NCBI RefSeq assembly: GCF_009753675.1
Contig: NZ_WQLV01000007.1
Coordinates: 1 to 64,000, forward strand
Direction: 5' to 3'
DNA: 64,000 nucleotides
DNA from: Parasedimentitalea huanghaiensis
GTDB taxonomy: Bacteria > Pseudomonadota > Alphaproteobacteria > Rhodobacterales > Rhodobacteraceae
Positions 32,297 to 53,057 of the stretch are shown here, piece after piece; the first letter of the stretch is position 1, and every line of letters starts with the position of its first letter. Below the pieces are notes generated by a model. The model was not told the DNA's origin, made no database searches, and worked only from the letters and a program-made list of their open reading frames with translations. A program made the position numbers and the translations under genes.

Positions 32297-33346
32297 TTAT
32301 CTGTCCCAGATCAGTGTTTGGTTGCCACCCAGTTTAGAAAAGGACAAAGGCCGACGCGGGGCGGCGAAATCTTCGGCCAAGGGATCCGATGTTAACGTCA
32401 GATAGGCCTCCAGCCACGCCAAATGATGTTTGCCGAGCTCTGCACTACCATCGAAGAATGACTGCACCTTCCCTGTCATTGCCTCAGTCTGTGCGCCATC
32501 TTCTAGATCGGACAGAGCAAAATGTACTGCCCGTTTTAGGGCTTGATCACATTGATCGACTATTGGTGTACCTTGTTGTTCCAGCAACAAAATTGAAGTC
32601 ACCAAGGGGGCCAGCGCGTAAAGTTGATAATGCAACGCGAATTTTCCGCGGGTCATTTCTTGGGGCAGACTTCCATCCGGATTGGCAGAACAGAGCACAT
32701 ATGTCGTCGACCAGATCGCCCAGGAACGCATGACTATGTCATTTCTCAATTCTGCAGTTGCTGTTGCGGCAAGTCCAGCCCAGGCCCGCAAATTCCCCGA
32801 AGCAGCACCTTTAGGAGCCTGTTCCCAAAACTTCATTTGCTCACTGACACGACGGGATAGCCAGGCGACCACTGTCTCCAATCCCTGTTCGTCGGCGGAA
32901 AATTGCGCTGCTTGACCTGTGACGATAGCAAGACCGGCCAAGCGGGCACCGATAGTCAGCTGAGCGGTTTGGGTGCTCAGATCAGACAACGCATCTGCTT
33001 CGGCCCAGACTGCGAGCTGGCGGATAAGACAATCGGCCTGATCGGGGCGTTGGCTCATCTCAGATTTCAACAGTGTCTCAAGCCCTTCGGCAAGATCGCG
33101 CAAAAAATCATCCAGTGGCTTTAGCGAGATCTCAGCTTTCGCCTGCGCTTCTTTGTTCAGCGTCGCGCGGCTGGCATCACTGCCTTCATAGCGGCTTTGG
33201 ACTGACAGGCTTTGTATAGGTGGTGGCGCCGGGGCACAGATCGATGCGTCTTGAGCCGCAGCTGCGCCTGCCCCAGATAACACGGCAAAGGATAGACCTA
33301 TGAAAAGCGCTCCCGTTTCAAACCTTTTGAGTGTGTTACTTCCCAT
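32297..33346 (-). CDS. algL: Periplasmic AlgL-like (alginate lyase fold) protein, catalytic His apparently lost
   Basis: A 349-residue exported protein (signal peptide about 1-31, cleavage near AAAAQ). After CAPAPPPIQSL it has SRYEGSDASRATLN (51-64), which matches the AlgL/PL5 block YEGSDSARATLN. The region HYQLYALAPL (239-248) matches the AlgL block with the catalytic tyrosine. However, the NNHxxW motif that carries the catalytic histidine reads GNLRAW here (184-189), so His is Leu186. In Pseudomonas AlgL clears stray alginate from the periplasm and is part of the export complex. I infer a structural or altered role here. The gene overlaps the AlgK-like gene by 11 bases and ends the operon. 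Confidence 0.8.
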   Translation of the reverse strand: MGSNTLKRFETGALFIGLSFAVLSGAGAAAAQDASICAPAPPPIQSLSVQSRYEGSDASRATLNKEAQAKAEISLKPLDDFLRDLAEGLETLLKSEMSQRPDQADCLIRQLAVWAEADALSDLSTQTAQLTIGARLAGLAIVTGQAAQFSADEQGLETVVAWLSRRVSEQMKFWEQAPKGAASGNLRAWAGLAATATAELRNDIVMRSWAIWSTTYVLCSANPDGSLPQEMTRGKFALHYQLYALAPLVTSILLLEQQGTPIVDQCDQALKRAVHFALSDLEDGAQTEAMTGKVQSFFDGSAELGKHHLAWLEAYLTLTSDPLAEDFAAPRRPLSFSKLGGNQTLIWDR

Positions 33347-36107
33347 GAGCAGCCCCTAACAACTGGGCAAGTTCACCGGCACGCGGGTGACTTAGATTTT
33401 CGGCGCGTGCCAGCCAATCCAGTGCAACTCCAATGTTACTTTGGGTACCAAGACCAAAGCCCAGGGCAAAGCCCAGCTCGACCATGGCTTCATCATACCC
33501 GCCTTCGGCAGCCTTTTGTAACCACTGTGTAGACTGGCGCAGATCTTCGGGCGTTCGAGCGCGATCTCGCAAATGCATCGCATACTCGAACCGCGCTCTG
33601 TTGTCGCCAGCATTGGCCGCGTTACGCAATACAGCCGCCATATCGCGGCGCTGATCAATCTGTGCACGCACATCTTCATGCGCAGTGCGATAACTGGACA
33701 TCACCCAGACCAACTCATCACCCTGAGCCTCTTCCAAAACGGCCAACAGATGGCTCGCCGCCGCCTGAGCATCAAAGCCCGGCAAATCAGGGTTTCCGGT
33801 CAAACGGTAAAGGCGCAAATTGGCATTGGGCTCGCGCTCGGTCAGGTTGCGGGCCGCGACACCCTGCATATCAGGCGCAGAACCGGCATCAAACAGTCTG
33901 ACTTGACTGTCGACCAGCTTCAATTTCGACAACAAATGCCCGCCGTCAAAATCCAGTATCACGTTGCGCCAATGATAGACCATTTCCGGGTCCTGGCGAA
34001 TGGCATAGGCATCGCCCATTTCATCGGCGTCTTTGTTTTCACAACCCATCAAAGATGCTGCGCGGTCAAAATAGTCATCCACCCGGTTTGCCGGCAGAAA
34101 CGGAATAGCAAAGATCAGCCCTAGAAAATCGCCACGCTCTTCGATCACATCCTTGAATTCATTATATATAACAAATGCACTGGCGGCGTAGTCTTCTGGG
34201 CTGGTGCTTTTTGCCAACAGCCGTGACTTCAACCGAATTGAGGCCCCTTCGCCGCGGTTCCCGGCGATGGTCAACATCTTGATGATGTCTTTTGCCACAT
34301 CAGGTTCGCGCGCTTGATCCTCAAGTAATGCAACCGACAAATCCAAGGCCGACGTCACGCCATTGTTCAAATACACTCTGCGAAAAAACTCTATTGCCAA
34401 GGCCCGCTCTGCTGGCGTTCTGGATAGCTCCATTTCCATGCGAACAAAGGTTTCCAACGCTTTATCAGATGGCGAAAGGCGCTTGGCCCAAAGTCGCAGC
34501 GCCGCCTCTGACGTCAGTGGGTTTGACTGCAACAGTTGCGCCAGTTCTGCCCGTGCCTGTGTGCGCCCTTGCAAGGCTTGCGTTTGAATCCGTGCCAGTA
34601 ATTCAGGGGATCGAAACGGGCTCAGCGTCAAAATGTCGGTGGCCGATGCCTGCACCGCAGCTTGCCCAGTTGCGGCATAGTTGCGGGCCCACAGATCGGC
34701 GGCGTCCTTATGTGGCGCATCATTCAACTGGCAACGATACAAACCTTCCAGAACCTGCATGGAACTGGCCATGCCGAAGCGCGACACAGTATCAAGCAAA
34801 AGATTCTCCGCCCGATTGATACGCACAGGATCATCACGATAGCGGATCAGAAAACGTGCCAGCATTTGCATGCCCGTCTCGTCGCCACGGGTGACCGCAA
34901 CCTCAAGCAGGTCCATAGCCTCAGCCTCACCAGCCCAGCGACCTTTGCGGGCAATCACCTCTTCGGCGAGATCCGTGAAAACAAACCCCGGAGCCTCTGG
35001 CATCGCGGACAGTTCGCGAAGATACTGCAGGCGAACGCTGTCTTCATTGACAACGACGTCATTCTTGCGCACCCCAAGGTCAAAATAGGGGATCATAGAG
35101 TTTTGGACTCGCCGGCGGTCTTGACTTTGGTTGAAGCCCAAAATGTCTTCGATTTCTTGCGCTGTGATCACGCCACTAGCCAAAAGCTGGCTGGTTTGGC
35201 GTTCGTCAGGCGACAGACCCAGTTGTGCAGCACGTCTCAGATAGGTGCGCATTTCGTCTAGATCTTTGCGATCCGCGTCGGCGTTCAAATGGTATTCCAC
35301 AACGCGCCACGCGGCCTTTACCCCGCCCATATCCGCCGCAAACTTGCGCCAGGCATGTGCCATATCAGGATTGGCGACCACAAGATCACCCTTCAGATAC
35401 TCCTGTGCAATGCGTTCGGCCCGCTTGCAAACACTCGGGGTCAATTCACCCAGCAATCCACCAAAGGCCAGCGTGACCGTCAAGTCCAACGGTGCGTCCC
35501 AACCTTCGAGCATTTCACCCCGTATTTGCATGCGGGCGATCTCAGTCAAGGCGCGGGCATTGCCACCAAAGGCTGCCTCACGCAGCATTTCCTGGGCAAA
35601 AGGAAGATCAGTGGGCACCAGAATGCCTTCGCGATAATAGCGCGCCAAGACAAGTTGCTGATTGTTTGATAGCTCGTCAGACCGGACACGTAGCTGTCCA
35701 ATCAGATTTATGCTGCGCAATTCATCAAGGCGTCTGGCCTTAAGATACAAGGCCACACGAGCAAACTCTTCACTCACCCCAGCGAATGAATCGTCCAACT
35801 GAGCGCGGCGAGTGATTAATGCGTTGATAAAATCGAACCAACGATCCGCGTCCTGTCGTTGCAGGCGATGAATGTCGCGGACCAAAAATTTCAACCGCAA
35901 CTCATGGGTCAAAACCAGATCACCCAGTCCATGTTCTGTGTGAAACTCTGCCTCACCAGCCGCAGGGGCATTGCACAAATCGCGTGACGAAATGCTGGGC
36001 GGCAAAAAATCGATCGGAAGGGGATTGGCCGAGGCGCCAAATGGCAACAGGATGCCAAGTATCCCTAAACTCAGTCCTATTTCCAGACCTGCAAGTTTAC
36101 GCAGCAT
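33336..36107 (-). CDS. algK: Large periplasmic Sel1/TPR-repeat protein (AlgK-like scaffold)
   Basis: A 923-residue exported protein (signal peptide about 1-27, cleavage near GASAN) composed mainly of Sel1/TPR-like helical repeats. Examples are GNARALTEIARMQIRGEM, GDETGMQMLARFLIRY and, near the C terminus, GGYDEAMVELGFALGFGLGT. AlgK of Pseudomonas is a roughly 450-residue TPR lipoprotein that holds the alginate export complex together; this protein is about twice as long and has no lipobox cysteine. Its place between the AlgX-like and AlgL-like genes supports the scaffold role. Assignment to AlgK rests on context and repeat type, not on a specific motif. Confidence 0.7.
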   Translation of the reverse strand: MLRKLAGLEIGLSLGILGILLPFGASANPLPIDFLPPSISSRDLCNAPAAGEAEFHTEHGLGDLVLTHELRLKFLVRDIHRLQRQDADRWFDFINALITRRAQLDDSFAGVSEEFARVALYLKARRLDELRSINLIGQLRVRSDELSNNQQLVLARYYREGILVPTDLPFAQEMLREAAFGGNARALTEIARMQIRGEMLEGWDAPLDLTVTLAFGGLLGELTPSVCKRAERIAQEYLKGDLVVANPDMAHAWRKFAADMGGVKAAWRVVEYHLNADADRKDLDEMRTYLRRAAQLGLSPDERQTSQLLASGVITAQEIEDILGFNQSQDRRRVQNSMIPYFDLGVRKNDVVVNEDSVRLQYLRELSAMPEAPGFVFTDLAEEVIARKGRWAGEAEAMDLLEVAVTRGDETGMQMLARFLIRYRDDPVRINRAENLLLDTVSRFGMASSMQVLEGLYRCQLNDAPHKDAADLWARNYAATGQAAVQASATDILTLSPFRSPELLARIQTQALQGRTQARAELAQLLQSNPLTSEAALRLWAKRLSPSDKALETFVRMEMELSRTPAERALAIEFFRRVYLNNGVTSALDLSVALLEDQAREPDVAKDIIKMLTIAGNRGEGASIRLKSRLLAKSTSPEDYAASAFVIYNEFKDVIEERGDFLGLIFAIPFLPANRVDDYFDRAASLMGCENKDADEMGDAYAIRQDPEMVYHWRNVILDFDGGHLLSKLKLVDSQVRLFDAGSAPDMQGVAARNLTEREPNANLRLYRLTGNPDLPGFDAQAAASHLLAVLEEAQGDELVWVMSSYRTAHEDVRAQIDQRRDMAAVLRNAANAGDNRARFEYAMHLRDRARTPEDLRQSTQWLQKAAEGGYDEAMVELGFALGFGLGTQSNIGVALDWLARAENLSHPRAGELAQLLGAAHGK

Positions 36108-37441
36108 CAGTATGCCTCCTCTTGCTGACAGGCGGTTAGACTGGCGGCAGGGCCAAAGGAACCACCACCCAATTGGACGTCCACATGAGATGCCCCCTCA
36201 GGCCACAGCCCTGACATCGGCATGTAGAACCGCCCAGTCAGAACCTGATCAGGAGTGCGGTAGACTGTTCGGGCACGAACACTCTTGTTCCGGGCGGCAA
36301 AAATAAAGCGAGCCGCTTGTACCTGAACGCCATCATTATCGAAGAACAAGGTGTAGCGTTTGGCTGGATCAAGGCCGCTCAGATCCGCCTGAAAAACCTT
36401 GCGGCCCTTATCAAACCGCAAAGGTAAGACAATCTCGCATCTCGGCCCGGCTGCTGTAATCAATTCCCGCAGGGGTTGCTCTCCAAATTCACCAGAGTTT
36501 ATCCAAATGGGCTGTTCCCAAATTAGAAATAACGGCCTGTTGGCCTGAAACTGTTGTGAAGTCAGATAGGCGGTCATCGCCGCCAGGGAGCCACCTTTGG
36601 CAAGGCTGTAGTGACCAGCGGACAGGCCGGTGGCCTCTTGCAAATGATGCGCAAAACCCAATGTCGATCCACCAGTCATCTCTGAACTGACCACTGCAAC
36701 TTCAATGGGCGCAACCGAGTTGAACAGATCCTGCGGGGCCGCCCCTTGACGCATCAGAACTTGATCAAATGTCAAACCAGGCAGGTCTTTTTCGCAATGA
36801 TCTTGCAAATCAAGGCGCCTGTCTGAGTGCATAGCTGCTTTACCACTAAGCCCGCTGAGAAACGCCGTTTGTGGCAATGCAGCATACCCGGGCGATCCTG
36901 CAACCATTTCCGCCGCAGCCCGCACCATGGTGCGCACACCGTGCGAGTTCAACCGCGGGTCAGGTCCAAAAAATACCGGGGCATCCATAGCAGCGCGCGC
37001 CAGGATATGACGGACATTTGGAGCAGCCACCCCATGGTGATTCAAGCGCTGAATGTTCTCATCATAGACCGTAGCAGCAATATCAATGTCAAAGCCCAAA
37101 TCAACTGCGGCCCAAGGTAAATTTTGAGGTTGTCCCAGGGCCTTAGTTGGCGTCGCCAGATAGATTAACGTTGTTCCCTGTGCTGCGAGAGTGTCAGACA
37201 GTTCCGCAAGGTCTTGGGCAATTTCTTCGGTGATCTCATGTGACATCATCAGGTCAGGAGACACGCTGTAGAACATGCCCTGCGATCCTTCCACACTCGG
37301 GCTGGTTCCTGAGTTCATCAGCCCAGAACAAGCATATTCAGAGCTTTGCGCGGCCAGAGGTGCGCCGAATAGCGAAAGCAACAACGCAGCGCACTGAGCC
37401 CGTGCGTTACATTTGAAAAATTTGACCATGTTGCCCGTCAT
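36107..37441 (-). CDS. algX: AlgX/AlgJ-like periplasmic protein with degenerate acetyltransferase motif
   Basis: A 444-residue exported protein (signal peptide about 12-31). The N-terminal half has the SGNH-hydrolase-like fold of AlgX/AlgJ (LIYLATPTKALG, then VAVVSSEMTGGSTLGFAHHL). The C-terminal half looks like the carbohydrate-binding module of AlgX. The DxHWxxxG motif that carries two of the three catalytic residues reads DPRLNSHG (161-168): Asp and Gly remain at the right spacing, but His is Arg163 and Trp is Leu164. In AlgX the enzyme O-acetylates the polymer. Here I infer a polymer-binding scaffold. It shares one base with the AlgK-like gene. Confidence 0.72.
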   Translation of the reverse strand: MTGNMVKFFKCNARAQCAALLLSLFGAPLAAQSSEYACSGLMNSGTSPSVEGSQGMFYSVSPDLMMSHEITEEIAQDLAELSDTLAAQGTTLIYLATPTKALGQPQNLPWAAVDLGFDIDIAATVYDENIQRLNHHGVAAPNVRHILARAAMDAPVFFGPDPRLNSHGVRTMVRAAAEMVAGSPGYAALPQTAFLSGLSGKAAMHSDRRLDLQDHCEKDLPGLTFDQVLMRQGAAPQDLFNSVAPIEVAVVSSEMTGGSTLGFAHHLQEATGLSAGHYSLAKGGSLAAMTAYLTSQQFQANRPLFLIWEQPIWINSGEFGEQPLRELITAAGPRCEIVLPLRFDKGRKVFQADLSGLDPAKRYTLFFDNDGVQVQAARFIFAARNKSVRARTVYRTPDQVLTGRFYMPMSGLWPEGASHVDVQLGGGSFGPAASLTACQQEEAY

Positions 37442-37474
37442 AAGCTAGCCCCTGCTGCCCTGTTATTCTTTAAG

Positions 37475-38233
37475 CTATTCATTAGCTGCGTATGTCTTGT
37501 CCATGAGCGCCACCAGATTCTGAGCTGACGTCATGATACCCAGATGCGATGACGTCTGCGCACGCTGCAAATAGGACCTCGCCCAGCCTTGCTGTTCTTT
37601 AGTGAGGTTAACTTGCTCCAAAAGAGCCACCGCCAAGCGCAACTCGACCCTGCCATCACCATTGCGTTGGCTTTGTTCTAGGATTTTGTCTCTTGTACTT
37701 TCACTGAGCTCACCGAACAGCTTGCCCTTACCATTGAATTCAATGACCGCATCCAGGGCCAGTGTATTTCCGGCCCAAGCATACGGATAAAGCACCTGAA
37801 TATACTTTCGAAGACGGTCGCGTGGCTCTGTGGCTGGATCAAGGCGCATCATCGCCTTGATCATGTCGGGCAACGTCCAGACCCGCCCGGTGCCCACCGC
37901 AATTGCGCTGTAATAGGCCACGTCTGACGGCGTGTTCACCGTCGCGCCGGCGGAGATCAGGCGACGCGCATAGGTCTGAGCCGCCAGTCCATAGCCGGCC
38001 TCACTCAGTTTTATCAGATTAGCGTCGCTTACAGGTTGATGTGCATGCAGCTGCTGACGCGCAGCGACCAGCGATGGCGACAACCCCTTCATGCTGAGAG
38101 GATCAGGTGTAATCGTGACGCTGATCCGCGAGGCCTTGGTATCGTCTGCAAACGGCAGCGGCATGTTTTGCGCGACTGCTGCCGTGGCGCAAAACACCCA
38201 AAGGCCTAGAAAAAAGCGTAATATCATGATCAT
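37475..38233 (-). CDS. Periplasmic TPR-like helical protein of the alginate-like operon
   Basis: A 252-residue exported protein (signal peptide about 1-21, cleavage after AAVA before QNMPL). The rest is predicted helical with Sel1/TPR-like spacing (DANLIKLSEAGYGLAAQTYA, RVELRLAVALLEQVNLTKEQ). It overlaps the AlgG-like gene by four bases (ATGA). No specific family is recognised. It may complement the AlgK-like protein in the periplasmic complex. It is not AlgF by any motif I can see. Confidence 0.72.
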   Translation of the reverse strand: MIMILRFFLGLWVFCATAAVAQNMPLPFADDTKASRISVTITPDPLSMKGLSPSLVAARQQLHAHQPVSDANLIKLSEAGYGLAAQTYARRLISAGATVNTPSDVAYYSAIAVGTGRVWTLPDMIKAMMRLDPATEPRDRLRKYIQVLYPYAWAGNTLALDAVIEFNGKGKLFGELSESTRDKILEQSQRNGDGRVELRLAVALLEQVNLTKEQQGWARSYLQRAQTSSHLGIMTSAQNLVALMDKTYAANE

Positions 38234-39777
38234 GACTCACATTCAGCCAAGCCAACCTGCACAGGGTATTGGGTACCACCGGCTGACATCAGCATCGGAG
38301 TCTCGCCGCTCAAATTAGTGGCGACAGCTCTGTTTTGCAGCGCAATATCACCGTCAATCAAACGTGGAAGTTGATCTGACAAGTCGTTTCCTACTAGCAT
38401 AAGCTGTCCACCTGTGGCCGTAGATAGCCCTGCTTTGTTCTGGCGCAGAGTATTGTCTGAAACATAGGTCACTGCATCTCTAGGCTGATCTGAAACCCAA
38501 ATCCCAGCGCTACGGCTTCCACTGATTTTATTTGCCTGAACCGTAGTTTGGCTACTGGAGCGAATATCAACCCCCTTTTGGCGGCTGTTCAGAATCACAT
38601 TGTCGCGTACAACAGCACAATTTGAGCTGGAAATTTTGATTGCACCGCCGCTGCGCCGCCAAATCACATTCCCCGACACCAGGACGTGATTGCTTTGGCC
38701 CTGCACCAAAATGCCAGAGCGGTCACCTTGTAGCAGAACATTCCCCTGGAGAGTGCTGTGGTCGGACCCGCGCAAAACCCGTATCGCATTTGTCGGACCC
38801 GAACCAAAAAACAGGTTACCCTGTACATTGGTACCCAACGAGGTCGACAGCAGCAAAGCATTGTTACGCATATTATAAAACTGGCTACCAGAGACCTCAC
38901 CACCAGATATCCCAGTCAATGACACCGTCTGCACATCATCAAAATAAGTATCTGTGATCCACGTTTCCCCGACCGTTGGCAAAAGCGGATGAGCCACAAC
39001 CGACAGGCCGGAAAACTTTGGTGACTTGCCAAAGCCAAGTCCCTGAAAGACAGCCTTGTCAACTTGCAGTGCACCACCACCACCGATGGTGAAAAAGGGA
39101 ACAAAATCCCCGCTGCTTGGAGAGGCTTCCCCAACAACGCTAACGCGACTGCCGGTTATCTCCACGCGGCCAAAGCTGATGATAAACGCCCCATCCCCAC
39201 GGCTAAGTTGCAGATGGTCTTCTGGGCCCAACTGCAACACCGTGTCATCCCAGAGAATGACCGGAACCCGCAAAGTGTTGTTCCTTGGCTGCATTTGGGC
39301 TTGTGGAAAAGTTTGTGCCTGGCTGGCACGGATGTGGTCCAGCGTCACCAATCCGGAGCGAAATGTCAGTGCCTGGGTTCTTTCACCTGGATGTGCGTTC
39401 AAGACATCAAGATTATCTTGCCCACCGTGCACCTGCGTCAGCAGCGCCAGCGCTGTGCGAAAATCTTCAACGCTTGTGTTGGCCAACTGGGTCGGAGAAT
39501 CTGTGGTTTTTACGCCAGTCACTGGGATTTGGTACGAAGATGGCAAGTCTGGTGTCAGGCCCGACAATCCAGTGCGATGCATCAACTGCCCCAAGGGCAA
39601 ACGCAAGGTAGCTCTGTCCTGAACCAAGAAATCGGACAGCTCGGTCAGTTGCTGATCTAGTTTCGTCAAATCAGAGTTGGGCCCAGCCCAAGAGGGGCTG
39701 GGCACCAGAAAGGAGACACAGAACATCAACGCAACCCAAAGAGCCCGGATCTGTATTTGTACCTGCCTGTCAGCCAT
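38230..39777 (-). CDS. algG: AlgG-like right-handed beta-helix protein (mannuronan C5-epimerase family)
   Basis: A 515-residue exported protein (signal peptide about 1-31, cleavage after SPSWA). Residues about 250-450 are rows of NOS/PbH1-type beta-helix repeats (STLQGNVLLQGDRSGILVQG, CAVVRDNVILNSRQKGVDIR), as in AlgG. AlgG converts mannuronate to guluronate in the polymer and also shelters it in the periplasm. The catalytic DPHD motif is not visible; the aligned region reads RVLRGSDHSTLQGN. I infer a chaperone-like role or a changed activity. It overlaps both neighbours (eight bases with the AlgA-like gene, four with the TPR gene). Confidence 0.75.
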   Translation of the reverse strand: MADRQVQIQIRALWVALMFCVSFLVPSPSWAGPNSDLTKLDQQLTELSDFLVQDRATLRLPLGQLMHRTGLSGLTPDLPSSYQIPVTGVKTTDSPTQLANTSVEDFRTALALLTQVHGGQDNLDVLNAHPGERTQALTFRSGLVTLDHIRASQAQTFPQAQMQPRNNTLRVPVILWDDTVLQLGPEDHLQLSRGDGAFIISFGRVEITGSRVSVVGEASPSSGDFVPFFTIGGGGALQVDKAVFQGLGFGKSPKFSGLSVVAHPLLPTVGETWITDTYFDDVQTVSLTGISGGEVSGSQFYNMRNNALLLSTSLGTNVQGNLFFGSGPTNAIRVLRGSDHSTLQGNVLLQGDRSGILVQGQSNHVLVSGNVIWRRSGGAIKISSSNCAVVRDNVILNSRQKGVDIRSSSQTTVQANKISGSRSAGIWVSDQPRDAVTYVSDNTLRQNKAGLSTATGGQLMLVGNDLSDQLPRLIDGDIALQNRAVATNLSGETPMLMSAGGTQYPVQVGLAECES

Positions 39778-41191
39778 TGATCACAATAGGCTCGTTTTGC
39801 TTATCTAAGTCCGCATTTTCCAGCGTCACAAACAGGAGTTCCGCAGTGGTATCGCCACTGTTAAGGATGCGAACACTACCGGCCTCATCTGCATAGATAC
39901 GCCCGCCTTCCACCGCTGCCTTGCTCCAGTCTGGGCCTGTGGCATGAACGGTCCCCTGAACCACAATGACCTGCTGGCTGCGCGAGCCACGGTCGAGCAA
40001 AATCGTCCGCCCCACTTCGATTTCGGCGGTTCCCAGGTGAAACCGGTCTGTTTCGACTATCTTTTCCAGTTGGTCTTGTTTGTGGAACGGCACCATGGTC
40101 GGAGTGGAATTGACGTGAACTTCTGCCTCGGAGCGCTTGCTGGCTTTGAGCAGATCAACAACCGCTTTGACGTTCTGGGTTTCATCCATTTTTGCCACAA
40201 GCAGTGCGTCTGGCGTGTCGATGACAATGATATCGCTCAGTCCGACCACACTGACCAAACGAGTATCGGTAGAGACCATCGTGTTTATCGAATTCAGCGC
40301 GACAACATCGCCTTGCAGGACATTGCCATCTTTGTCGGGCTGCGAAATATTGTACATCGCCAACCAGCTGCCTACGTCATTCCACGACACATCCAAAGGC
40401 GCCAGAGCGATACGGTCTGTTTGTTCAAACACTACACTTTCGGTGGGCTGGGCAGCGGATTCGGCGAATTCTGCCTCGTCGAGATACAAGGCTTCGGGCG
40501 TATCAGAACCAAAGTCCACAGAGGCACTCACGTGGCCCGCGGTCGTTGGATCAAATTTCTGGTATTCTTCGATGATAGTTTTGGCGGAAAACATCGACAG
40601 TCCTGACGCCCAATAGGCCGACTTACTGTCAATCAATGCCTGAGCTTCCTCCTGCGGAGGTTTTTCGACAAAGCCGCCAACCTGTCGAACTGTGTCAAAC
40701 CCAGCCAAAGGTCCGGCATCGGTGATGTAACCAAACCCGGTTTCCGCATAACGCGGCGGAATACCGAAGGTGATGATATGACCAGCCTGAGCCGCTGGAA
40801 TGCACGCCTCGATTGTTTCCGTCAAACGACCTTCAATCACGTGATCCGCAGGGATCACGACAAATAAGGCGTCTGGATCTTTGCGCGCAATAGCATGGGC
40901 AGCCGCGAGGACAGCTGGACCGGTGTTGCGTCCAACGGGTTCGCAAATTATCTGCGCCTTGGACTGAATTTCACGCAGTTGTTTCACCACGGTGCCACGA
41001 TGAATGCCACCGGTGACAATCACAGGATCCTGGTAAACTGGCCCGCGATGGCGTTGCACGGCGACCTGGAAAAAGGTCATCGACTCAGGGCCGCTGATTT
41101 TTTGGAACTGCTTGGGGCTTTGAGTTCGTGACAAAGGCCAAAGGCGGGTGCCTTTTCCGCCGCAGATGATCAGTGGATAAATCGTGGTCAT
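39770..41191 (-). CDS. algA: Mannose-1-phosphate guanylyltransferase (AlgA/ManC-like) with degenerate isomerase domain
   Basis: A 473-residue cytosolic enzyme making GDP-mannose, the precursor for the polymer. The nucleotidyltransferase motif is CGGKGTRLWPLSRTQSPKQF (10-29), followed by typical blocks (VIPADHVI, FVEKPP, WNDVGSW). The C-terminal cupin-like region keeps the fold (RTILLDRGSRSQQVIVVQGT), but the QMHHHRxEHW zinc motif of bifunctional AlgA/ManC is absent. It is therefore probably a guanylyltransferase without phosphomannose isomerase activity. The start at 41191 has GAGAGG nine bases upstream; a TTG-type start at 41218 is rejected. Confidence 0.88.
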   Translation of the reverse strand: MTTIYPLIICGGKGTRLWPLSRTQSPKQFQKISGPESMTFFQVAVQRHRGPVYQDPVIVTGGIHRGTVVKQLREIQSKAQIICEPVGRNTGPAVLAAAHAIARKDPDALFVVIPADHVIEGRLTETIEACIPAAQAGHIITFGIPPRYAETGFGYITDAGPLAGFDTVRQVGGFVEKPPQEEAQALIDSKSAYWASGLSMFSAKTIIEEYQKFDPTTAGHVSASVDFGSDTPEALYLDEAEFAESAAQPTESVVFEQTDRIALAPLDVSWNDVGSWLAMYNISQPDKDGNVLQGDVVALNSINTMVSTDTRLVSVVGLSDIIVIDTPDALLVAKMDETQNVKAVVDLLKASKRSEAEVHVNSTPTMVPFHKQDQLEKIVETDRFHLGTAEIEVGRTILLDRGSRSQQVIVVQGTVHATGPDWSKAAVEGGRIYADEAGSVRILNSGDTTAELLFVTLENADLDKQNEPIVING

Positions 41192-41214
41192 TGTAATTGC
41201 CTCTCGCTTCAATC

Positions 41215-42426
41215 TCAAAGGCCCAACAGGCCCTTCGACAGCCGCAATCTTGCGGATTTGCCGATATCCTTTGTTGTCAAAGCACCCTCTTCAGAAACAA
41301 GTTCGACAGGGACAAAAACGTCACCACGCAGGCTCGCTGCTGTGGTTGCCTCACTGGCGATAACCTCGACAGGAATGCTTCTCCCGTCATTGAGATCCAT
41401 ATGAACCTGATCTCCGTTCATCGCCCGATTCAGCCCTTCTATGCTCATCAGAGTCTGTGCTCTGATTAATGAAGTATTAACATAAATTGTCAGAATTAAG
41501 TCCGTTTGAAGGACAGTTGTGCCATCTGAAATTCCTTTTGTAACAACCACTTCACAGTCACATGGCATCGTGAAGTTCAATACATTGCCGGTATTGGCGT
41601 TAACCGAATACAGCACCTCTCCCTTGGCGGCGTTAGGATTTAGGTAAGAAATTTGCCCGGCGGCTGTAGCGCGCATTTTTTGACCGGCTCGCTCCACAAA
41701 CACCGGATGCATTTCGTAACTCGTTGAATAGCGTTGAAGTAGCACACTGCCTGCTACAATAATTAGCAAAACCGACAACGCGGCCACACCAAGTGAGCGC
41801 ACCCGGTTCATGAGTGAATGCCCCCTCGCCTCACCCTTTGGCTTTTTGGGTGCGGTCGGCCCAGTATAGCTGATCATACCGTCTACGGATACAAAATCCC
41901 CGCCAATATGGCTGTTCACTATATAGCGTAGCTGCGGCAGGTGCCCGCCGGTGGGATCTGTAAACTGAAAGACTGATTTGCCCTGAACGTCTTCACTAAT
42001 CACCATAACTTCGGGATGCAACGAGAGTACAAAGCTCTCGAATGCAAAGTTGATAATAGCGATATGCCGCGTGCCGTTCCCCAGCATCCCACCTTCTGTC
42101 GCCTGTGCATGGATCTGCATAAGCGAGATACTGTCACCGGTATATCGTTGCCCGGCGACAGTCACCGAATACGGAATTTTCAACAGTGGATGCTCATCAT
42201 CGTAGCCAAAATCTACCGGTAAAGGCTGGCTCTGTGTTGTGCCTGACGGGGATTGAGGTTCGCGATGAACTGGCTGGGGTGCAGGTTCCGGGGGACTGGC
42301 TTCGCCCGGGTTGTAGTTCTTGCTCATACTGGCAGTCCGCTGGACAAGAGGACGACGGGCTTCGGCCCGTGGTTCGGGTGTTTCAGGCTTGTCAGAGGGA
42401 GCCAGTCGAAAAAGGTTGTTGTCCAT
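41215..42426 (-). CDS. alg44: Alg44-like membrane-fusion protein with degenerate PilZ domain
   Basis: A 403-residue inner-membrane protein. About 70 proline-rich residues precede a cytoplasmic PilZ-like domain (about 80-190). One membrane helix follows (211-230, SLGVAALSVLLIIVAGSVLL), then a periplasmic HlyD-like barrel (about 235-400). This is the Alg44 architecture. In Alg44 the PilZ domain binds c-di-GMP through an RxxxR motif and a D/NxSxxG motif and switches on Alg8. Here the second motif reads DSISLMQ (98-104), and no RxxxR precedes it; the place holds HPLLKIPYSV. Control by c-di-GMP is therefore doubtful. It follows alg8 after 21 bases. Confidence 0.85.
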   Translation of the reverse strand: MDNNLFRLAPSDKPETPEPRAEARRPLVQRTASMSKNYNPGEASPPEPAPQPVHREPQSPSGTTQSQPLPVDFGYDDEHPLLKIPYSVTVAGQRYTGDSISLMQIHAQATEGGMLGNGTRHIAIINFAFESFVLSLHPEVMVISEDVQGKSVFQFTDPTGGHLPQLRYIVNSHIGGDFVSVDGMISYTGPTAPKKPKGEARGHSLMNRVRSLGVAALSVLLIIVAGSVLLQRYSTSYEMHPVFVERAGQKMRATAAGQISYLNPNAAKGEVLYSVNANTGNVLNFTMPCDCEVVVTKGISDGTTVLQTDLILTIYVNTSLIRAQTLMSIEGLNRAMNGDQVHMDLNDGRSIPVEVIASEATTAASLRGDVFVPVELVSEEGALTTKDIGKSARLRLSKGLLGL

Positions 42427-42447
42427 AAGGGTACCTCGTCGTGCCTA

Positions 42448-43926
42448 TTAGAGAGTGTTCAGAAACATTACGGCGATGGTCAGCCATGACAGGGCAAGCG
42501 CGTGGTGAGCAAAGGATTCCCAAGCTTTGACACGGTCCTGCAGGGCCATAGCCTTGCCCGAACCGCCGCTGCCTTGCCGCGTCCATTTCTGTTTATCCAG
42601 TCGAAAAAGAACAAAAGTTTTGATGATGGCCCCAGCAACCTGCCCGAAATACAAGATCGGGGGATGAGTGATGGGGAACCATTCTTTGTTAAACAGGGCG
42701 ATAAAGATACAAAACATATAGCGGGTCGCCATAACCCAAGCGATGTAGAGTGGGATCACCGAAAGCGAAACTGTTGCCGCCGCTACAATAACTGAGATCG
42801 GGCCAACAAGTGTGGTCCACATAGAAACCCGCTGATCAAGGATCGACCACCAGGTAAAAAATCCGATTTTGCGCGGATCTTCACGAAGTGCCCGACCATT
42901 TGTGCGCATCATATTGCCAAACCATCGGATCATCAGCGTTTTGGCACTGTCATAAAACGTGTCACGCGGTTGGTCTTCCGCGGATTGTGACTGGATATCG
43001 GGCATATAGGCCATCTGATATCCATTACGAAGTAGCCAATACCAAGTGGATTTGTCATCACCGGTTAGGAAATTCACCCGACCAAGACGCCAATGATCAA
43101 GAAAGTCAAAACCAACACCTTTGATAAAGCCTGGATCTGTCGCAAGGGAAGCGCGAAACACTGACATACGCCCCGTCAGCGTCAGCACCCGGTTGCCCAG
43201 TCCCATTGAACACATCATCACCTGACGCTGGTTGAAGCGCAGTGTGAACCAGTCTTTGAACAGATTCTGTTTGTCGATGATTGCGGCCTCATCGGTGGTC
43301 AGCGCCCCCATGCGCGGATCCGAAAAGAAAGGAGCCGCTTGGGCCCAGATATCAACCGGCACCACAGTATCCCCATCGACAAACACCATAATGTCATCTT
43401 TGGTCGGGGCCTTATCAGCCAAGATGCGTAAAGCCTTCTCCATGGCGTCACGTTTACCGCTGGATTTGATTCGATCGATAACCAGTTCGACATTGCTCAT
43501 ATCGAACTTCGAAGACGCATAGAGCTGCTGGATCAGACGCTCATCTTTACCGTCCACAACTGAGGCCACAATCGTCGCGCCATCGCGAGCTTTTGACGCT
43601 GCCTCAAACAAACGACGATAAACCATGATCGTCACTTCGTTATCGACCATATAGCTGGTCAGCATAAAGTAGCAGTGCGATTTAACGTTGCTGGCCCAAA
43701 AACGCCTGTGGTGACGCCGCTTCCAGATTGGATAGGCAATGCGGCGAAAAAAAACGGCCCGACCAAAATTGGTCACCGCCCAAGTATAGCGCCAAGTCCC
43801 CAAAAAGCCGACGATGAACACCGCATTAGATGCGTGATGCAACTCCCCCAGGAAACCCTGGGGGACAACGGCCACCAACAAATAGATGACCGCAAAATAC
43901 GCCGTATGAGTAAGGACCATTGTCAT
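42448..43926 (-). CDS. alg8: Alginate-type polymerase, family 2 glycosyltransferase (Alg8-like)
   Basis: A 492-residue inner-membrane polymerase that links mannuronate units from GDP-mannuronate in alginate producers. N-terminal helices (about 6-24 and 33-50) precede the GT domain. It has a VDGDT metal site (183-187), TGDDKSTW (288-295) and QRVSMW. C-terminal helices lie around 375-450 and 468-490. All catalytic signatures look intact, unlike many partners in this operon. It lies seven bases after algD and before alg44. Confidence 0.9.
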   Translation of the reverse strand: MTMVLTHTAYFAVIYLLVAVVPQGFLGELHHASNAVFIVGFLGTWRYTWAVTNFGRAVFFRRIAYPIWKRRHHRRFWASNVKSHCYFMLTSYMVDNEVTIMVYRRLFEAASKARDGATIVASVVDGKDERLIQQLYASSKFDMSNVELVIDRIKSSGKRDAMEKALRILADKAPTKDDIMVFVDGDTVVPVDIWAQAAPFFSDPRMGALTTDEAAIIDKQNLFKDWFTLRFNQRQVMMCSMGLGNRVLTLTGRMSVFRASLATDPGFIKGVGFDFLDHWRLGRVNFLTGDDKSTWYWLLRNGYQMAYMPDIQSQSAEDQPRDTFYDSAKTLMIRWFGNMMRTNGRALREDPRKIGFFTWWSILDQRVSMWTTLVGPISVIVAAATVSLSVIPLYIAWVMATRYMFCIFIALFNKEWFPITHPPILYFGQVAGAIIKTFVLFRLDKQKWTRQGSGGSGKAMALQDRVKAWESFAHHALALSWLTIAVMFLNTL

Positions 43927-43933
43927 TGCGGTT

Positions 43934-45253
43934 TTACCAGCAAATGCCTTCGTAGTTTTCGTCTGACACCATATCGCGATGCAATCGGGTCAGGTCGACA
44001 ACTGTCTGGGTTTTGGCTGCTTCTTTAAGCTTTTCAACGGTCTCGTTGTAGTAGTTCCCCACCAAAACCGCACCGGCGTCATTGATTAGCTCATCAAGAT
44101 CGCCGACCAGTCGGTTTTCAAGATTTGGGACGCTTTCATTGCCACGCCCCGCACCTGGGGTACCGCTGTCATAAGCTTCTTTGACAAATGGGTCGTAGAT
44201 ATTGACCTCTATGCCTTTGTTGATCAGGCGTGCCGCAAGGCTGACCAGGGGACTTTCGCGCAGATCATCAGTACCTGGTTTAAAGCTGATACCGACAAAG
44301 CCAACTGTCTGTGCGCCGCTCTTTTCAACCATGGCTTCTGCCTTGGAAATCTGAGCTTCGTTGGCCTCTAAGACTGCATTCAACAGATGCGCTGGTGTAT
44401 CGTTCTGACTGGCGAGGTGGCGCAACGCACGCACATCTTTTGGCAGACAAGAACCACCAAAGGCAAAGCCCGGGCGCATGAAATAGGGCGACATCGCCGC
44501 CTTTTTGTCACTGCACAGAATTTCCATAACGCTTTGACCGTCAATCCCGCAGGACTTGGCAATGTTACCGATTTCGTTGGCAAAGGTCACCTTGACCGCA
44601 CGCCAAGTGTTAGAGGTGTATTTCACCATTTCAGCGGTACGAATATCGACTTTGTTGACCGCACAGGGCATGTCTTTATTCAGATCCGCCAGGATCTGGC
44701 CGGTCGGCTCATCCATAAAGCCAAAGACCACCAGACCGGGGTCATAGCTGTCGGCAATGGCAGTGCTTTCGCGCAAGAATTCCGGGTAATAGCCAACCCC
44801 GAATCCCACACCAGCCTTTTTGCCAGATGTCTGTTCCAAAACCGGAATACATGCGCTTTCAGTGCTGCCCGGCACAATGGTCGAGCGGATAACGACCGAA
44901 TGATAGACGTCTTTTTCACGCAATGCTTTGCCAATGTCTTCGCAGACACTGGTTACGTACGATAGTCCTACAGATCCGTCAGCTGCTGAAGGTGTTCCAA
45001 CACAGACGAAGGACATCTCCGTCTCGTGCACTGCTCTGCCAAAATCGCTGGTTGCGCGCAGCTTACCTTTGGCCACCATTTCTCGGACAAGATCATCGAT
45101 CCCTTCCTCAACAATGGGGGACATACCCGCATTAATTGCATCAATTTTACCCTGGTCTACATCAACTGCAATGACTTCATGACCGTCCTGCGCAAGACAC
45201 GCAGCGGACACGACGCCAACATAGCCAATGCCAAAGACACTGATCTTTGCCAT
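43934..45253 (-). CDS. algD: GDP-mannose 6-dehydrogenase (AlgD-like)
   Basis: A 439-residue cytosolic enzyme that oxidises GDP-mannose to GDP-mannuronate with two NAD+. The N-terminal Rossmann motif is FGIGYVGVVSAACLAQDGHE. The catalytic cysteine is in GGSCLPKDVRAL (Cys269), and the lysine/asparagine block KYTSNTWRAVKVTFANE is present. A C-terminal UDP/GDP-binding domain has GISFKPGTDDLRESP. Length is close to that of Pseudomonas AlgD (436 residues), and it is the first gene of the alginate-like operon, as in Pseudomonas. UDP-sugar dehydrogenases share the fold, but the neighbours favour GDP-mannose. Confidence 0.9.
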   Translation of the reverse strand: MAKISVFGIGYVGVVSAACLAQDGHEVIAVDVDQGKIDAINAGMSPIVEEGIDDLVREMVAKGKLRATSDFGRAVHETEMSFVCVGTPSAADGSVGLSYVTSVCEDIGKALREKDVYHSVVIRSTIVPGSTESACIPVLEQTSGKKAGVGFGVGYYPEFLRESTAIADSYDPGLVVFGFMDEPTGQILADLNKDMPCAVNKVDIRTAEMVKYTSNTWRAVKVTFANEIGNIAKSCGIDGQSVMEILCSDKKAAMSPYFMRPGFAFGGSCLPKDVRALRHLASQNDTPAHLLNAVLEANEAQISKAEAMVEKSGAQTVGFVGISFKPGTDDLRESPLVSLAARLINKGIEVNIYDPFVKEAYDSGTPGAGRGNESVPNLENRLVGDLDELINDAGAVLVGNYYNETVEKLKEAAKTQTVVDLTRLHRDMVSDENYEGICW

Positions 45254-45537: not shown

Positions 45538-46479
45538 ATGAGACGCCCAATGCAGCGAATGGCCCGGATTGCATTTTTTCTCAGCGCTTTCTTAACCGGC
45601 TGCACCGGTGCGATTCCCAATTCGACCAGTGGAAGTAACGAAGTGTTTACGCCCGGAGACGGCTACGAAAGGTTTTACAGTTCAGCCGACCACAACTTCC
45701 GATACGCATTTGCTGAACACCAGGCGCCCACCCGCCGGGGCAGCCGTAGTGAGCGGTTCGAACTGCGTGATGGCGATTGTGGCGGTGGTGATTGCGGTAA
45801 TCCCCGCTACCGCACCGAAATTCAGATGCCAACCAAGTCGAACCCTGCCAACGTCGGCAAAGATATTTGGTATGGCTGGAGCTTCCTAAACTCTGGCGTC
45901 CCCAGTTTTACTCGCGAAAACTCTTTGCGACTTGTCTTTGGTCAATGGGGCATGCCTGGCGGGGCAACACCTTCGATCCGGCTGATCCAATTGGGCACGG
46001 ACGAAGGCAATTGGACGGCCTGCCAAAACACCACCTGTGCCGGGTCAGCCATAAATCACGGCGACGTTGTCATTCAGCTCGCGGATATGAATCGTGCCTT
46101 CGACTGGGGTAAACACAAGAATGAAGGTTATGTGTGCCGCTTATTTGAGATGCAGGAGCATAAAGACCGGTGGGTTGACTTGGTTATGAACACTAACTTT
46201 TCAGACGGTGAAGACGGCTATTTGCAGGTCTGGGTCAATGGTGATCTACGGTGTAACTATAACGGCCCAATCGTTTCTCCCAACAGCTTGCTCAAAGGAG
46301 CAAAACCGGGGCATCGCCGTGGTATCTTTTCAAGCTACACAGAACGCTGGACAAAAACACATGGCGCAAAACCCAAGCCAACTCTGGTCGTGTACTATGA
46401 CGAATTCGCGGTTGGGTCATCGCGCAGCCAGGTCGACCCATTGTTGCGCGAGCAATCTAATAAGCCGGCAATCGACTAG
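45538..46479 (+). CDS. Secreted polysaccharide lyase-like lipoprotein (Polysacc_lyase / PL20-like)
   Basis: A 313-residue protein with a lipoprotein signal (hydrophobic AFFLSAFL-type core and lipobox LTGC near residue 21). The mature domain resembles the jelly-roll polysaccharide lyase family (heparin lyase I / glucuronan lyase-like): GSRSERFELRDGDCGGGDCG and NPRYRTEIQM early, YCDEF-like VVYYDEFAVGSS at the end. It would cut a uronate-containing polymer at the cell surface. It is divergent from algD across a 284-base shared promoter region, so it may act on the operon's product. The annotated start at 45538 includes a second Met at 45550, which also works. Confidence 0.75.
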   Translation: MRRPMQRMARIAFFLSAFLTGCTGAIPNSTSGSNEVFTPGDGYERFYSSADHNFRYAFAEHQAPTRRGSRSERFELRDGDCGGGDCGNPRYRTEIQMPTKSNPANVGKDIWYGWSFLNSGVPSFTRENSLRLVFGQWGMPGGATPSIRLIQLGTDEGNWTACQNTTCAGSAINHGDVVIQLADMNRAFDWGKHKNEGYVCRLFEMQEHKDRWVDLVMNTNFSDGEDGYLQVWVNGDLRCNYNGPIVSPNSLLKGAKPGHRRGIFSSYTERWTKTHGAKPKPTLVVYYDEFAVGSSRSQVDPLLREQSNKPAID

Positions 46480-47245: not shown

Positions 47246-48508
47246 TCATTTCGTCATTTCTTTGGCGTGTATTCCCAAGAGCAAGAGACTTGGCCAAAGT
47301 AGATAGACCTCGATCTCGATGTTCTCACCAAAAGACAGCAGCACAAAAACCAGAATGATCCCAAAAGGCAGCGTTCCGCGGTTCGATTTTATGGTGTCAG
47401 TCACTGCCAACACCAATTGCCACAGCAGTGGGATCAATAGTGCGAGAAACCCGGTGACGCCTTTTACAAAGAGCAACCCATACCAAGTGTGGTGGCTGCC
47501 GATGGGCATGTATTCAACGATGTGAGACCCCGGCGCGACCCTACCGTGGCCAAACCACACCGCTTCATTCTCCCAGCGTTCAGTTGCAATACGTTGCAGG
47601 GTGGCGCGCACGCGGGAGCTGTCGGCACGGGCAGATTTGAAGGCGCGGACACTAGACTGGGCCGAGGTGATCAACCCGTCAGCAACCATTGAGGCCACCA
47701 CCAAACAGCCTGCCAACCCCTGCCAGGCCCAAGATTGGGCGGACAGACGCAACAGACGTGGGATCGCCGGACAGACGACCAGCCCAACCAGCCCCATGCG
47801 CGATTTAGAGGCAAGTATTAGGAAAATACCAGCAGTCACGCCGATGGCTTTCCAGCGGGTGCATTTTTCTTCGAGTGCAAACAGCACCATCAACACCCCC
47901 AACAGCGCCGCAAAAGGCGACCATGGCGCGTAGAATTGCCAACGTGGTGTGCCGCTGGCCGGGTCCAGCGTATACAGGAAAACAGTAAAATACTCGGGCC
48001 CCGGCCCGCCAACCACCTTGAGCGGAGATGTGAAAATCTTTTCAGGCAGGCCAATATAGGGCGCAACCAGCATCAGGGGTGCAAGAACAAGAACCCACAG
48101 GCCAACAACACATTGGCCACGGATCAGGATCGCGCGCCGGATGGGCAAGACGGCTCCGGCCAGTGGGAACAGTGCCATCAACGCCCAGCCCTTGGCCCAG
48201 CCGATGGTCGAACGGATAATCGTCTTCGTGCCGAAATCGAAATTGATCAACCCAACCCAAAGAATGATCAGCATGGCGGTCATACCGATAATCCAGGCCC
48301 AGACAACGGCTGGTATCGGGGTGTCACACCGTAGATCCTCGCGCACAGCTGCCCCGAAATAGACCACGAGCGCGGCCAATCCACCTAGCATCCAGCCCAG
48401 CACCGGACCAACAATATACAGAGCGCCAACGGCATAGAACGGCCAGGTCCAGATCAAAACTTTGTAGACGATGTTTTCAGCCGGGTTACGTGGAGTGATA
48501 TCGCTCAT
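47246..48508 (-). CDS. O-antigen ligase/polymerase-like membrane protein (Wzy/WaaL type)
   Basis: A 420-residue inner-membrane protein with about ten to twelve hydrophobic segments. The central periplasmic loop and the motif VWFGHGRVAPGSHIVEYMP, then GSHHTWYGLLFVKGVTGFLA, are typical of the Wzy_C (O-antigen ligase) family. It should polymerise or ligate the repeat units of the exopolysaccharide. It overlaps the Wzz-like gene by four bases (ATGA), so the two are translated together. Confidence 0.87.
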   Translation of the reverse strand: MSDITPRNPAENIVYKVLIWTWPFYAVGALYIVGPVLGWMLGGLAALVVYFGAAVREDLRCDTPIPAVVWAWIIGMTAMLIILWVGLINFDFGTKTIIRSTIGWAKGWALMALFPLAGAVLPIRRAILIRGQCVVGLWVLVLAPLMLVAPYIGLPEKIFTSPLKVVGGPGPEYFTVFLYTLDPASGTPRWQFYAPWSPFAALLGVLMVLFALEEKCTRWKAIGVTAGIFLILASKSRMGLVGLVVCPAIPRLLRLSAQSWAWQGLAGCLVVASMVADGLITSAQSSVRAFKSARADSSRVRATLQRIATERWENEAVWFGHGRVAPGSHIVEYMPIGSHHTWYGLLFVKGVTGFLALLIPLLWQLVLAVTDTIKSNRGTLPFGIILVFVLLSFGENIEIEVYLLWPSLLLLGIHAKEMTK

Positions 48509-49986
48509 GAGCGGTGCTCTTCACGGCGGGCAATCAACCAGTTGATCATCCCAAAGCGGGCCCAACCCAGCGCCAACGCAACCATGACGCAAAACGTGGC
48601 GGCAACACCGGCAACAATGGTGAGCATGCGCCGGGGGGATGACGGTTTCAGCGGCAGCGAGGGGGCTTCGAGTACCTGAACCAGTGGATAAGACGCATAA
48701 ACATCAACCTTGGAGGACTGCCCCCGTGCAATGGCCGAGGTGAAAACTGCCTCGGATACGCGGAAGTCACGTTGCAGATCTTCCAGGCGCGCCGCCATGG
48801 GGGCAATGATTTCCAGCTTCTGGCGTTCTTCCAGACAGCGTTTGTGCAAGGTGTGATATTCAGCGTTCGCCCCTTGCCTCTCAGCCTCGGCGCGCACCAG
48901 ATCCGCCAGCAAGGCCGTCCGATCGCCTCGCTGTGACATCTCGAGCCCAATAACTTCTGGTTCGGTCAACCCGGTACGTGCCACGGCAATTGTCACCAGT
49001 GTTCCCTGCGCCAAATCATGCTGCGCCTTGGCCTCAAGCACGCGCGGGTGCTGGGAGCCATAGTGCGAACGCATTTCGGTCAGCAGGGCCGCCTTGTCCG
49101 ACGCATCTTTCACATAGGTGAGATAGTTGTTGTCGGAATAGAGGTTCAGAACCCTTGCGGCCTTGGCTGCTGGCAAGCCCAGGGTTACCTCCAGTGCGTT
49201 GACATAGGCTGTCTTCTCCAGCAGCCGGGCCTGAGCATTTTCGGTCAAAACCCGCAGGGCATCATTATCGCGTACCTGCGCGGAAAACTGATCCTTGGAC
49301 AGGAAACCGGTTTCCTGTTGCAGCCGGTCAATATCAATACGCGTGGCGGCAACCGAGCTGCGGTATTCCTCAATCGCGGAAACCGCACTTTGCTCGCGCA
49401 TGCTGAGTTCATCATTCCGCAGCAGGGTTAGTTCGCTTTGAAAGGCTTGCAGAATAGCCTCGGCCCGCAGCTGTGCCTCTTGCGCGCTGGGGCCTTTCAT
49501 TTGAACCCGGATCAGGCCGGTTTGATCCACTAGATCAATCACCGGCGCAGGCAATTCAGTCACCGGCATATCCAGACTAACGGCTGCGGCCAATCTGATC
49601 CGATTGGCTGTAATTAGCCGTTTGTAGGTCTGGGTAGGGCTGACGGAATCCGTGGCAAAGGCTGACGACGCATAAGACGATGCCTGACCGATGCTTTCCA
49701 AATTGACCGAAGCTGAAGCCCCGGATCCCGGCAGGATCAACGCCATTTGGGAAGTATACTTGGGCGGAGTGGTTGTCAGATAGGTGAAAATAGGCATCCA
49801 GATGCCAGCACACCACATCAGAAAAAACGTAGTGTAACGACTGCAGCGCCAGAAGAAATTACGTGGTTTGCGTGGCAAAAACTGGGCGTTTGGGTAGCCG
49901 TTGTTGACCGCCTTGCTTTGCTTCAGCGATACTTTGGTCGCTCCGCTTTTTCCGAAAATTTTGCTGGATGCAGCCAAAAACGCCAT
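48505..49986 (-). CDS. Wzz-like polysaccharide copolymerase (chain-length determinant), no kinase domain
   Basis: A 493-residue inner-membrane protein. An N-terminal helix (about 52-72) precedes a long periplasmic coiled-coil region (about 180-420), and a C-terminal helix follows (LTIVAGVAATFCVMVALALG, about 455-478), preceded by LPLKPSSPRRM, the proline-rich block of Wzz/Wzc proteins. The tyrosine-kinase domain seen in Wzc/ExoP is absent. It controls polymer length and works with the polymerase it overlaps. It reads leftward from a palindromic site at 50088-50103. Confidence 0.85.
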   Translation of the reverse strand: MAFLAASSKIFGKSGATKVSLKQSKAVNNGYPNAQFLPRKPRNFFWRCSRYTTFFLMWCAGIWMPIFTYLTTTPPKYTSQMALILPGSGASASVNLESIGQASSYASSAFATDSVSPTQTYKRLITANRIRLAAAVSLDMPVTELPAPVIDLVDQTGLIRVQMKGPSAQEAQLRAEAILQAFQSELTLLRNDELSMREQSAVSAIEEYRSSVAATRIDIDRLQQETGFLSKDQFSAQVRDNDALRVLTENAQARLLEKTAYVNALEVTLGLPAAKAARVLNLYSDNNYLTYVKDASDKAALLTEMRSHYGSQHPRVLEAKAQHDLAQGTLVTIAVARTGLTEPEVIGLEMSQRGDRTALLADLVRAEAERQGANAEYHTLHKRCLEERQKLEIIAPMAARLEDLQRDFRVSEAVFTSAIARGQSSKVDVYASYPLVQVLEAPSLPLKPSSPRRMLTIVAGVAATFCVMVALALGWARFGMINWLIARREEHRS

Positions 49987-50087
49987 TATGTCATCTCACT
50001 GAAAAACTGTTTCAATGGATGATACTGCGCGTCAGGCGTGGCTCGGTGATCCCATTCGCATTGCGCCTGTCACAGTTGGATGCTGGC

Positions 50088-50103
50088 CTATCCGTTGGGA
50101 TAG
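50088..50103. promoter_or_regulatory. Palindrome CTATCC-N4-GGATAG upstream of the Wzz-like gene
   Basis: CTATCC-GTTG-GGATAG, perfect six-base arms, lies about 100 bases before the Wzz-like start and just beyond the response-regulator stop. The same arms recur at 50811 and 52417. It is a candidate site for the LuxR-type response regulator encoded between them. Confidence 0.5.
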
Positions 50104-50110
50104 CCTAAAC

Positions 50111-50725: not shown

Positions 50726-50810
50726 TACAAAACCTCATCAAAATATAGCTTCTATAGCCATCACTCTAAGAGCAAATGGTAGGGGTTAGGTATAAATTTA
50801 GGTCAGATTT

Positions 50811-50826
50811 CTATCCAAATGGATAA
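50811..50826. promoter_or_regulatory. Palindrome-like site CTATCC-N4-GGATAA
   Basis: CTATCC-AAAT-GGATAA, with five-base perfect arms TATCC/GGATA, lies between the response-regulator start and the divergent glycosyltransferase-fusion gene. It is the second member of the three-site series. Confidence 0.45.
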
Positions 50827-53015: not shown

Positions 53016-53057
53016 TGCTATAGTAGGATCACTACATCGGTTAGAAAGTATCGCAAT

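Follow-up and report, generated by a model that had tools for sequence, protein, structure and literature searches.

What would an alginate-type operon make if its polymerase were intact and its tailoring enzymes had lost their catalytic residues? The question is raised by a stretch of 64,000 nucleotides from Parasedimentitalea huanghaiensis, a member of the Rhodobacteraceae (assembly GCF_009753675.1, contig NZ_WQLV01000007.1, positions 1 to 64,000; here, the window). Positions 32297 to 45253 on the minus strand form one operon, algD-alg8-alg44-manC-algG-tpr-algX-sel1-algL, in which the nine open reading frames either overlap or are separated by no more than 33 bases and are all intact; a divergent gene for a PF14099 polysaccharide lyase lies upstream.

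A preliminary description of the window had recognized the alginate-like operon in this order, which proved real, and had taken its changes for a single consistent loss across all tailoring steps. The residue losses are indeed conserved in related genomes; however, the change comes in two layers, not in one event. The first layer, common to operons with and without an acetylation module (types I and II below), comprises the losses of the AlgG DPHD motif, the Alg44 RxxxR motif, the ManC isomerase site, and the AlgL His. Only the second layer, the loss of AlgI, AlgJ, and AlgF and of the AlgX catalytic residues, sets the window's clade apart from type I. This coupling of algIJF loss with replacement of the AlgX active site is apparently not previously reported; relatives of the system are known.

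The acetylation module and the AlgX active site

Among 295 genomes of the same family, 41 encode an Alg8 relative (E ≤ 1e-20), and 21 of these, the window's own included, carry the close form (53 to 100% identity). The 20 other genomes yielded 20 operon stretches (two from G183 and none from G021, whose contig is 3.5 kb), 15 of which contain the nine-gene set in identical order; the order is conserved across genera. Named loci from public genomes, the best 80 of at least 570 relatives in an Alg8 alignment scan, were added. Compared with the window Alg8, the Zongyanglinia marina DSW4-44 protein shows 99% identity and the Pseudophaeobacter leonis protein 93%, which makes a marine Rhodobacterales host most likely. 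Two main architectures were found, type I with algI, algJ, and algF and type II, which includes the window, without all three. Type I was defined by the presence of AlgI. Of the 49 such rows, two of which repeat a genome (L043/L101 and L045/L104), 47 also contain AlgJ and AlgF; the two exceptions, L109 and L113, lie close to contig ends. For example, the type I locus L042 matches MBOAT (algI) with 112.9 bits, PF16822 (algJ) with 181.1, and PF11182 (algF) with 44.2. A more distant type III (L146 and L148 to L151) encodes AlgG-like proteins of 1041 to 1276 amino acids; a PL7 lyase gene lies near L151.

The AlgX-like SGNH protein of the window (36107 to 37441) matches PF16822 with 87.3 bits and the structure 4knc with an E value of 2.9e-16. 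In AlgX, Asp174, His176, and Ser269 are reported to be required for acetylation (PMC4148444). The active-site positions read Asp-His-Trp-Ser in 45 of 45 type I loci (the duplicate row L045 was dropped and the truncated AlgX of L113 set aside), whereas the complete Asp-His-Ser triad is found in none of the 27 type II loci. The catalytic His is replaced by Arg in 25 of these, Gln in one, and Lys in one; at the Ser position there is Glu in 17, Asp in 5, Ala in 2, Arg in 1, and Ser in 2. The window reads Asp-Arg-Glu, so that the loss of the His from AlgX, noticed beforehand, is borne out, and two additional type II rows (L032 and L040) likewise carry Arg and Glu. Because the type II Arg ranks at the 90th percentile for column conservation and a basic residue (Arg or Lys) is paired with an acidic one (Glu or Asp) in 21 of the 27 rows, the change does not look like decay; the alignment shows conversion of Asp-His-Ser into Asp-Arg-Glu/Asp in most members, which may form a salt bridge. 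Neither His nor Ser is present in any of three Martelella loci. In the sole type III row, L151, all four residues are present; that locus is cut there and is therefore uninformative for algI, algJ, and algF.

AlgI, AlgJ, and AlgF are missing from every type II locus, as the preliminary description had reported for the window. Could acetylation or epimerization be provided by genes elsewhere in the genome? The host assembly (4.86 Mb, 40 contigs, 99.99% complete) encodes no MBOAT protein (PF03062), a single AlgX-family protein (PF16822), and a single AlgG-like protein, AlgF and RTX-type epimerases not having been searched for genome-wide; profiles PF03062, PF16822, PF13372, NF038177, PF05426, and PF14099 found no relatives outside this locus. 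Even allowing that profile searches can miss distant families and that a secreted RTX-type epimerase was outside the search, such a provision is very improbable. MBOAT is likewise absent genome-wide from 9 of the 12 type II genomes in the family sample; in the other three it lies on a separate contig (G072 and G264) or in a second, type I operon (G183). Both operon types were found in one genome twice, in G183 (L039 and L043) and in strain CCMM004 (L088 and L103), which is suggestive of two different polymers or of a single polymer in two forms.

In a tree of 90 Alg8 proteins, built by a quick method with support from the Shimodaira-Hasegawa-like approximate likelihood ratio test (SH-aLRT), the 27 type II loci and one cut contig form one clade (SH-aLRT 100) nested inside type I. 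The three Martelella loci form a separate clade (SH-aLRT 97) beside the type I loci of Roseibium, and a single clade of type II and Martelella is rejected by the approximately unbiased test (p-AU 2.5e-7). It therefore appears that the AlgX triad and the acetylation module disappeared together on at least two occasions.

Changes shared with module-bearing relatives

The type I operons, found in Rhodobacterales, Rhizobium, Devosia, and Roseibium, share the gene order of the window and its changes in AlgG, Alg44, ManC, and AlgL; they differ in carrying algI, algJ, algF, and a complete AlgX triad and in having no PF14099 lyase found beside them. The absences of the AlgG, Alg44, and AlgA-like motifs listed in the preliminary description agree with the residue alignments. 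The AlgG-like parallel beta-helix protein (38230 to 39777; NF038177, 41.4 bits; 4ozz, E value of 2.2e-8) lacks the epimerase DPHD motif, and DPH is found in none of 88 aligned rows of types I and II and Martelella, 51 of them type I; among type III rows it is present in four of five, with DAHD in the fifth. The Alg44-like protein (41215 to 42426) has a PilZ fold at about residues 73 to 176, a long helix at 205 to 234, and a MexA-like periplasmic part. It has no RxxxR motif at the site. Neither does any of the 88 rows that are not type III, of which 48 are type I, whereas all four type III rows have one. In the ManC/AlgA-like protein (39770 to 41218; TIGR01479, 354.6 bits, slightly below the cutoff of 372.95), a table of residues shows the GDP-mannose pyrophosphorylase motifs intact and the isomerase metal site gone; the metal motif occurs in all three type III rows and in none of the other 87, of which 49 are type I.

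The AlgL-like PL5 protein (32297 to 33346; PF05426, 80.4 bits; 4ozv) has Leu at the position equivalent to His202, as do all 40 rows of types I and II and Martelella, only 6 of which are type I, most named loci being cut there, and some of which repeat a genome; His is present in three of four type III rows. The equivalents of N201, W205, R249, and Y256 are retained in 40 of 40. The loss of the His had been described correctly; inactivation of the enzyme, which had been read from it, is not shown, and since the acid/base Tyr and the Arg are among the retained residues, the AlgL-like protein may still have lyase activity. In Pseudomonas aeruginosa, AlgL H202A is reported to be inactive in vitro, yet growth and appearance resemble the wild type (PMC8829089).

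The same residues bear on the idea that these active sites are not dead but rebuilt, the AlgL-like (NLRAW plus HYQ-x-[HY]A) and AlgX-like (Asp-Arg-Glu) proteins catalyzing or binding something new. The invariant AlgL positions and the Arg kept in nearly all type II AlgX rows speak for it; conversely, the AlgX nucleophile is lost in 25 of 27 rows, and the AlgG columns conserved at 95% are chiefly Gly, Asn, Phe, and similar residues. On this evidence, rebuilding is unlikely.

Large RTX-repeat proteins near type I operons (L045:432-2459 and eight other type I loci) show partial likeness to parallel-helix epimerase folds. Such RTX parallel-helix proteins were considered as candidates for a secreted epimerase beside 10 rows (9 distinct); none has DPH and one has DTHD, and therefore no epimerase is claimed.

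The loss of several catalytic motifs could also mean that the operon is decaying and nonfunctional. The ratio of nonsynonymous to synonymous substitution rates (dN/dS) between the window and Zongyanglinia is 0.012 to 0.138 over all ten genes: 0.012 to 0.051 for algD, alg8, alg44, manC, and the Sel1 gene, 0.131 for algX, 0.135 for algG, 0.138 for algL, 0.134 for the small protein gene, and 0.124 for the lyase gene. The operon genes are under purifying selection. With dN/dS low in the comparisons with L072 (all ten genes) and L073 (the nine genes found there), frames intact in the window, and the order kept across genera, decay is scarcely credible; the earlier suggestion that old enzymes serve as scaffolds fares well, their folds being retained under this selection and scaffold roles being probable. 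The P. leonis draft locus L073 has two frames each for alg44, manC, and the Sel1 gene, a split due to sequencing error or decay, and no PF14099 lyase was found in the 2.8 kb upstream.

Polymer, lyase, and export

AlgD (43934 to 45253), in which Cys269 is present as previously stated, scores 437.8 bits over residues 3 to 439 against the GDP-mannose dehydrogenase structure 1mfz and at most 234.4 against UDP-glucose dehydrogenases; judged by its sequence, it is a GDP-mannose dehydrogenase. Alg8 (42448 to 43926; PF13641/PF13632) was assigned by its GT2 family, motifs, and position. Its VDGDT and TGDDKSTW motifs are intact, again as described before, and these columns are invariant over 20 aligned sequences, the window included. 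Sequence searches against solved structures gave nothing useful for Alg44, Alg8, or the PF14099 lyase; structure models were made for two proteins, the Alg44-like protein and the lyase.

The lyase gene (45538 to 46479, plus strand; PF14099, 66.4 bits against a cutoff of 29.9) encodes a lipobox-like signal, and a lipobox-like Cys is seen by eye in most aligned relatives; L084:3958-4935 and L099:7451-8536 seemingly have an ordinary signal peptide and, by eye, no such Cys. Where enough upstream sequence is available, a PF14099 lyase adjoins 18 of 26 type II operons vs none of 43 type I operons. The nearest fold is endo-beta-1,4-glucuronan lyase (Trichoderma 2zzj, about 15% identity and similar fold), with heparin lyase I as further fold kin. 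This likeness is what favors a polymer not based on mannuronate, e.g., beta-1,4-glucuronan with the lyase as its matching degrader. Because AlgD scores far higher against the GDP-mannose enzyme, however, a non-alginate polymer, which had been proposed beforehand, is disfavored, and the glucuronan alternative is improbable. For the same reason, the product is likely an unacetylated, unepimerized polymannuronate that AlgX and AlgG, themselves catalytically silent, would convey; that the polymer is unmodified, as first supposed, accords with the lack of an acetylation module and of a recognizable epimerase motif.

At algK's place, the operon encodes a 923-amino-acid Sel1-repeat protein (33336 to 36107; PF08238, 39.6 bits) without a lipobox; AlgK is not among its 11 PDB matches, and no AlgK-like lipoprotein was recognized in the operon. 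The small conserved protein (37475 to 38233), previously called TPR, has a signal-like N terminus and no match in Pfam or NCBIfam. The AlgE family was found in only 1 of the 21 genomes, type II G279. The absence of algE reported earlier thus holds for the window's own genome but is not specific to it, AlgE being also missing from the genomes of most type I relatives. A porin gene was sought downstream of algL by an all-against-all comparison of 15 fetched stretches (two shorter than 5 kb). Of four groups present in at least three loci, the two largest (10 and 6 loci) represent, by position and sequence, overlapping parts of algL and the Sel1 gene; the others comprise 5 and 3 loci.

The proposal that we consider probable is that the locus is an alginate-type synthase-dependent secretion operon that evolution pared down in two steps. 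In the first, an ancestor common with the acetylating relatives would have lost the AlgG DPHD, Alg44 RxxxR, ManC isomerase, and AlgL His sites, probably without using AlgE; in the second, the window's clade would have lost AlgI, AlgJ, and AlgF, and AlgX would have turned from an acetyltransferase into a structural protein. From their families, ManC and AlgD would supply GDP-mannuronate, and Alg8 and Alg44 would polymerize it and extrude poly-beta-D-mannuronate through a periplasmic conduit of the AlgG-like, AlgX-like, small, and Sel1 proteins. The AlgL-like protein may still clear stray polymer, and trimming or recycling of the unacetylated polymer is the probable task of the neighboring lyase. 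The fuller version, in which plain polymannuronate is secreted with AlgX and AlgG as a pure conduit, a conserved Asp-Arg-Glu clamp, an undescribed outer-membrane exporter other than AlgE, and a dedicated lipoprotein lyase, is tentative and, on balance, somewhat doubtful.

Several observations weigh against the two-step proposal. The named loci are limited to the best-scoring relatives. The aligned AlgX Ser persists in 2 of 27 type II rows (L084 and L080, the latter maybe misaligned), and 5 of 27 depart from the Glu/Asp pattern. Branches of the Alg8 tree are supported by SH-aLRT alone, and the tree includes one long Martelella branch; the 27 type II rows belong to a single clade and hence are not independent events, so that two losses are counted in all. 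Synonymous divergence from L074 and L075 is saturated or undefined, and the nearest fold of the lyase is, as noted, a glucuronan lyase. Finally, the exporter was not found: no AlgE porin (PF13372) matched in the window's own genome at E ≤ 1, and no gene beyond the overlap with algL and the Sel1 gene is common to more than 5 of the 15 downstream stretches. In G279, two PF13372 proteins (contigs C17 and C20) lie off the contig of the operon; a distant AlgE there is possible.

Adjoining the operon, positions 47246 to 60224 hold a seemingly separate Wzx/Wzy-type polysaccharide cluster with WecG and a sugar transferase (50941 to 52356), a Wza-type export protein (55631 to 56845), a flippase-family protein (56964 to 58280), and a weakly Wzc-like protein under the Pfam cutoff (48505 to 49986). 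Furthermore, a second, distant Alg8-like family (L051 to L070; 27 to 38% identity) occurs within the same bacterial family; its 20 fetched loci encode a nucleotide-sugar dehydrogenase in most cases, a ManC relative in ten, and an AlgI-like MBOAT protein in five.

Relation to known alginate systems

AlgX combines alginate acetylation with membership of the export complex, two roles that deletion hardly separates. In Pseudomonas, alginate is reportedly still produced when algI, algJ, or algF is disrupted, and only fragments are released when AlgX, AlgG, AlgK, or AlgE is lost (PMC3815931); production is also reported to require an AlgK-AlgX interaction (PMC9734138). As AlgX is required for production and AlgI, AlgJ, and AlgF are not, a lineage dropping acetylation would be expected to retain AlgX without its triad, as seen here.

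The window shares with Pseudomonas and Azotobacter relatives of AlgD, Alg8, Alg44, AlgX, AlgG, AlgL, and ManC/AlgA in a single operon, but in an order other than the algD-8-44-K-E-G-X-L-I-J-F-A given for those genera (PMC3815931). It lacks AlgI, AlgJ, AlgF, AlgE, the AlgX triad, the AlgG and Alg44 motifs, and the isomerase site, a Sel1 protein is present instead of AlgK, and the PF14099 lyase, which matches its family above the cutoff, is extra. Bundalovic-Torma et al. (2020) reported 64 alginate operons among 1733 genomes, and "atypical" operons of environmental and deep-sea bacteria that have lost algKE or modification loci are already described there; in the portion of that paper available to us, there is no report that a retained AlgX has lost catalytic residues or that such a loss is coupled to that of algIJF (PMC7112194). 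Likewise, none of the listed titles and abstract beginnings from the open-licence PMC literature deals with alginate-type operons of Rhodobacterales or with AlgX inactivation of this coupled kind.

The two roles of AlgX have thus apparently been split by evolution at least twice, AlgI, AlgJ, and AlgF being gone and AlgX being retained without its triad, which makes the scaffold role directly testable. The finding also suggests where unacetylated, probably guluronate-free mannuronan might be obtained, and it raises the question of which outer-membrane exporter serves an entire branch of alginate-type systems.
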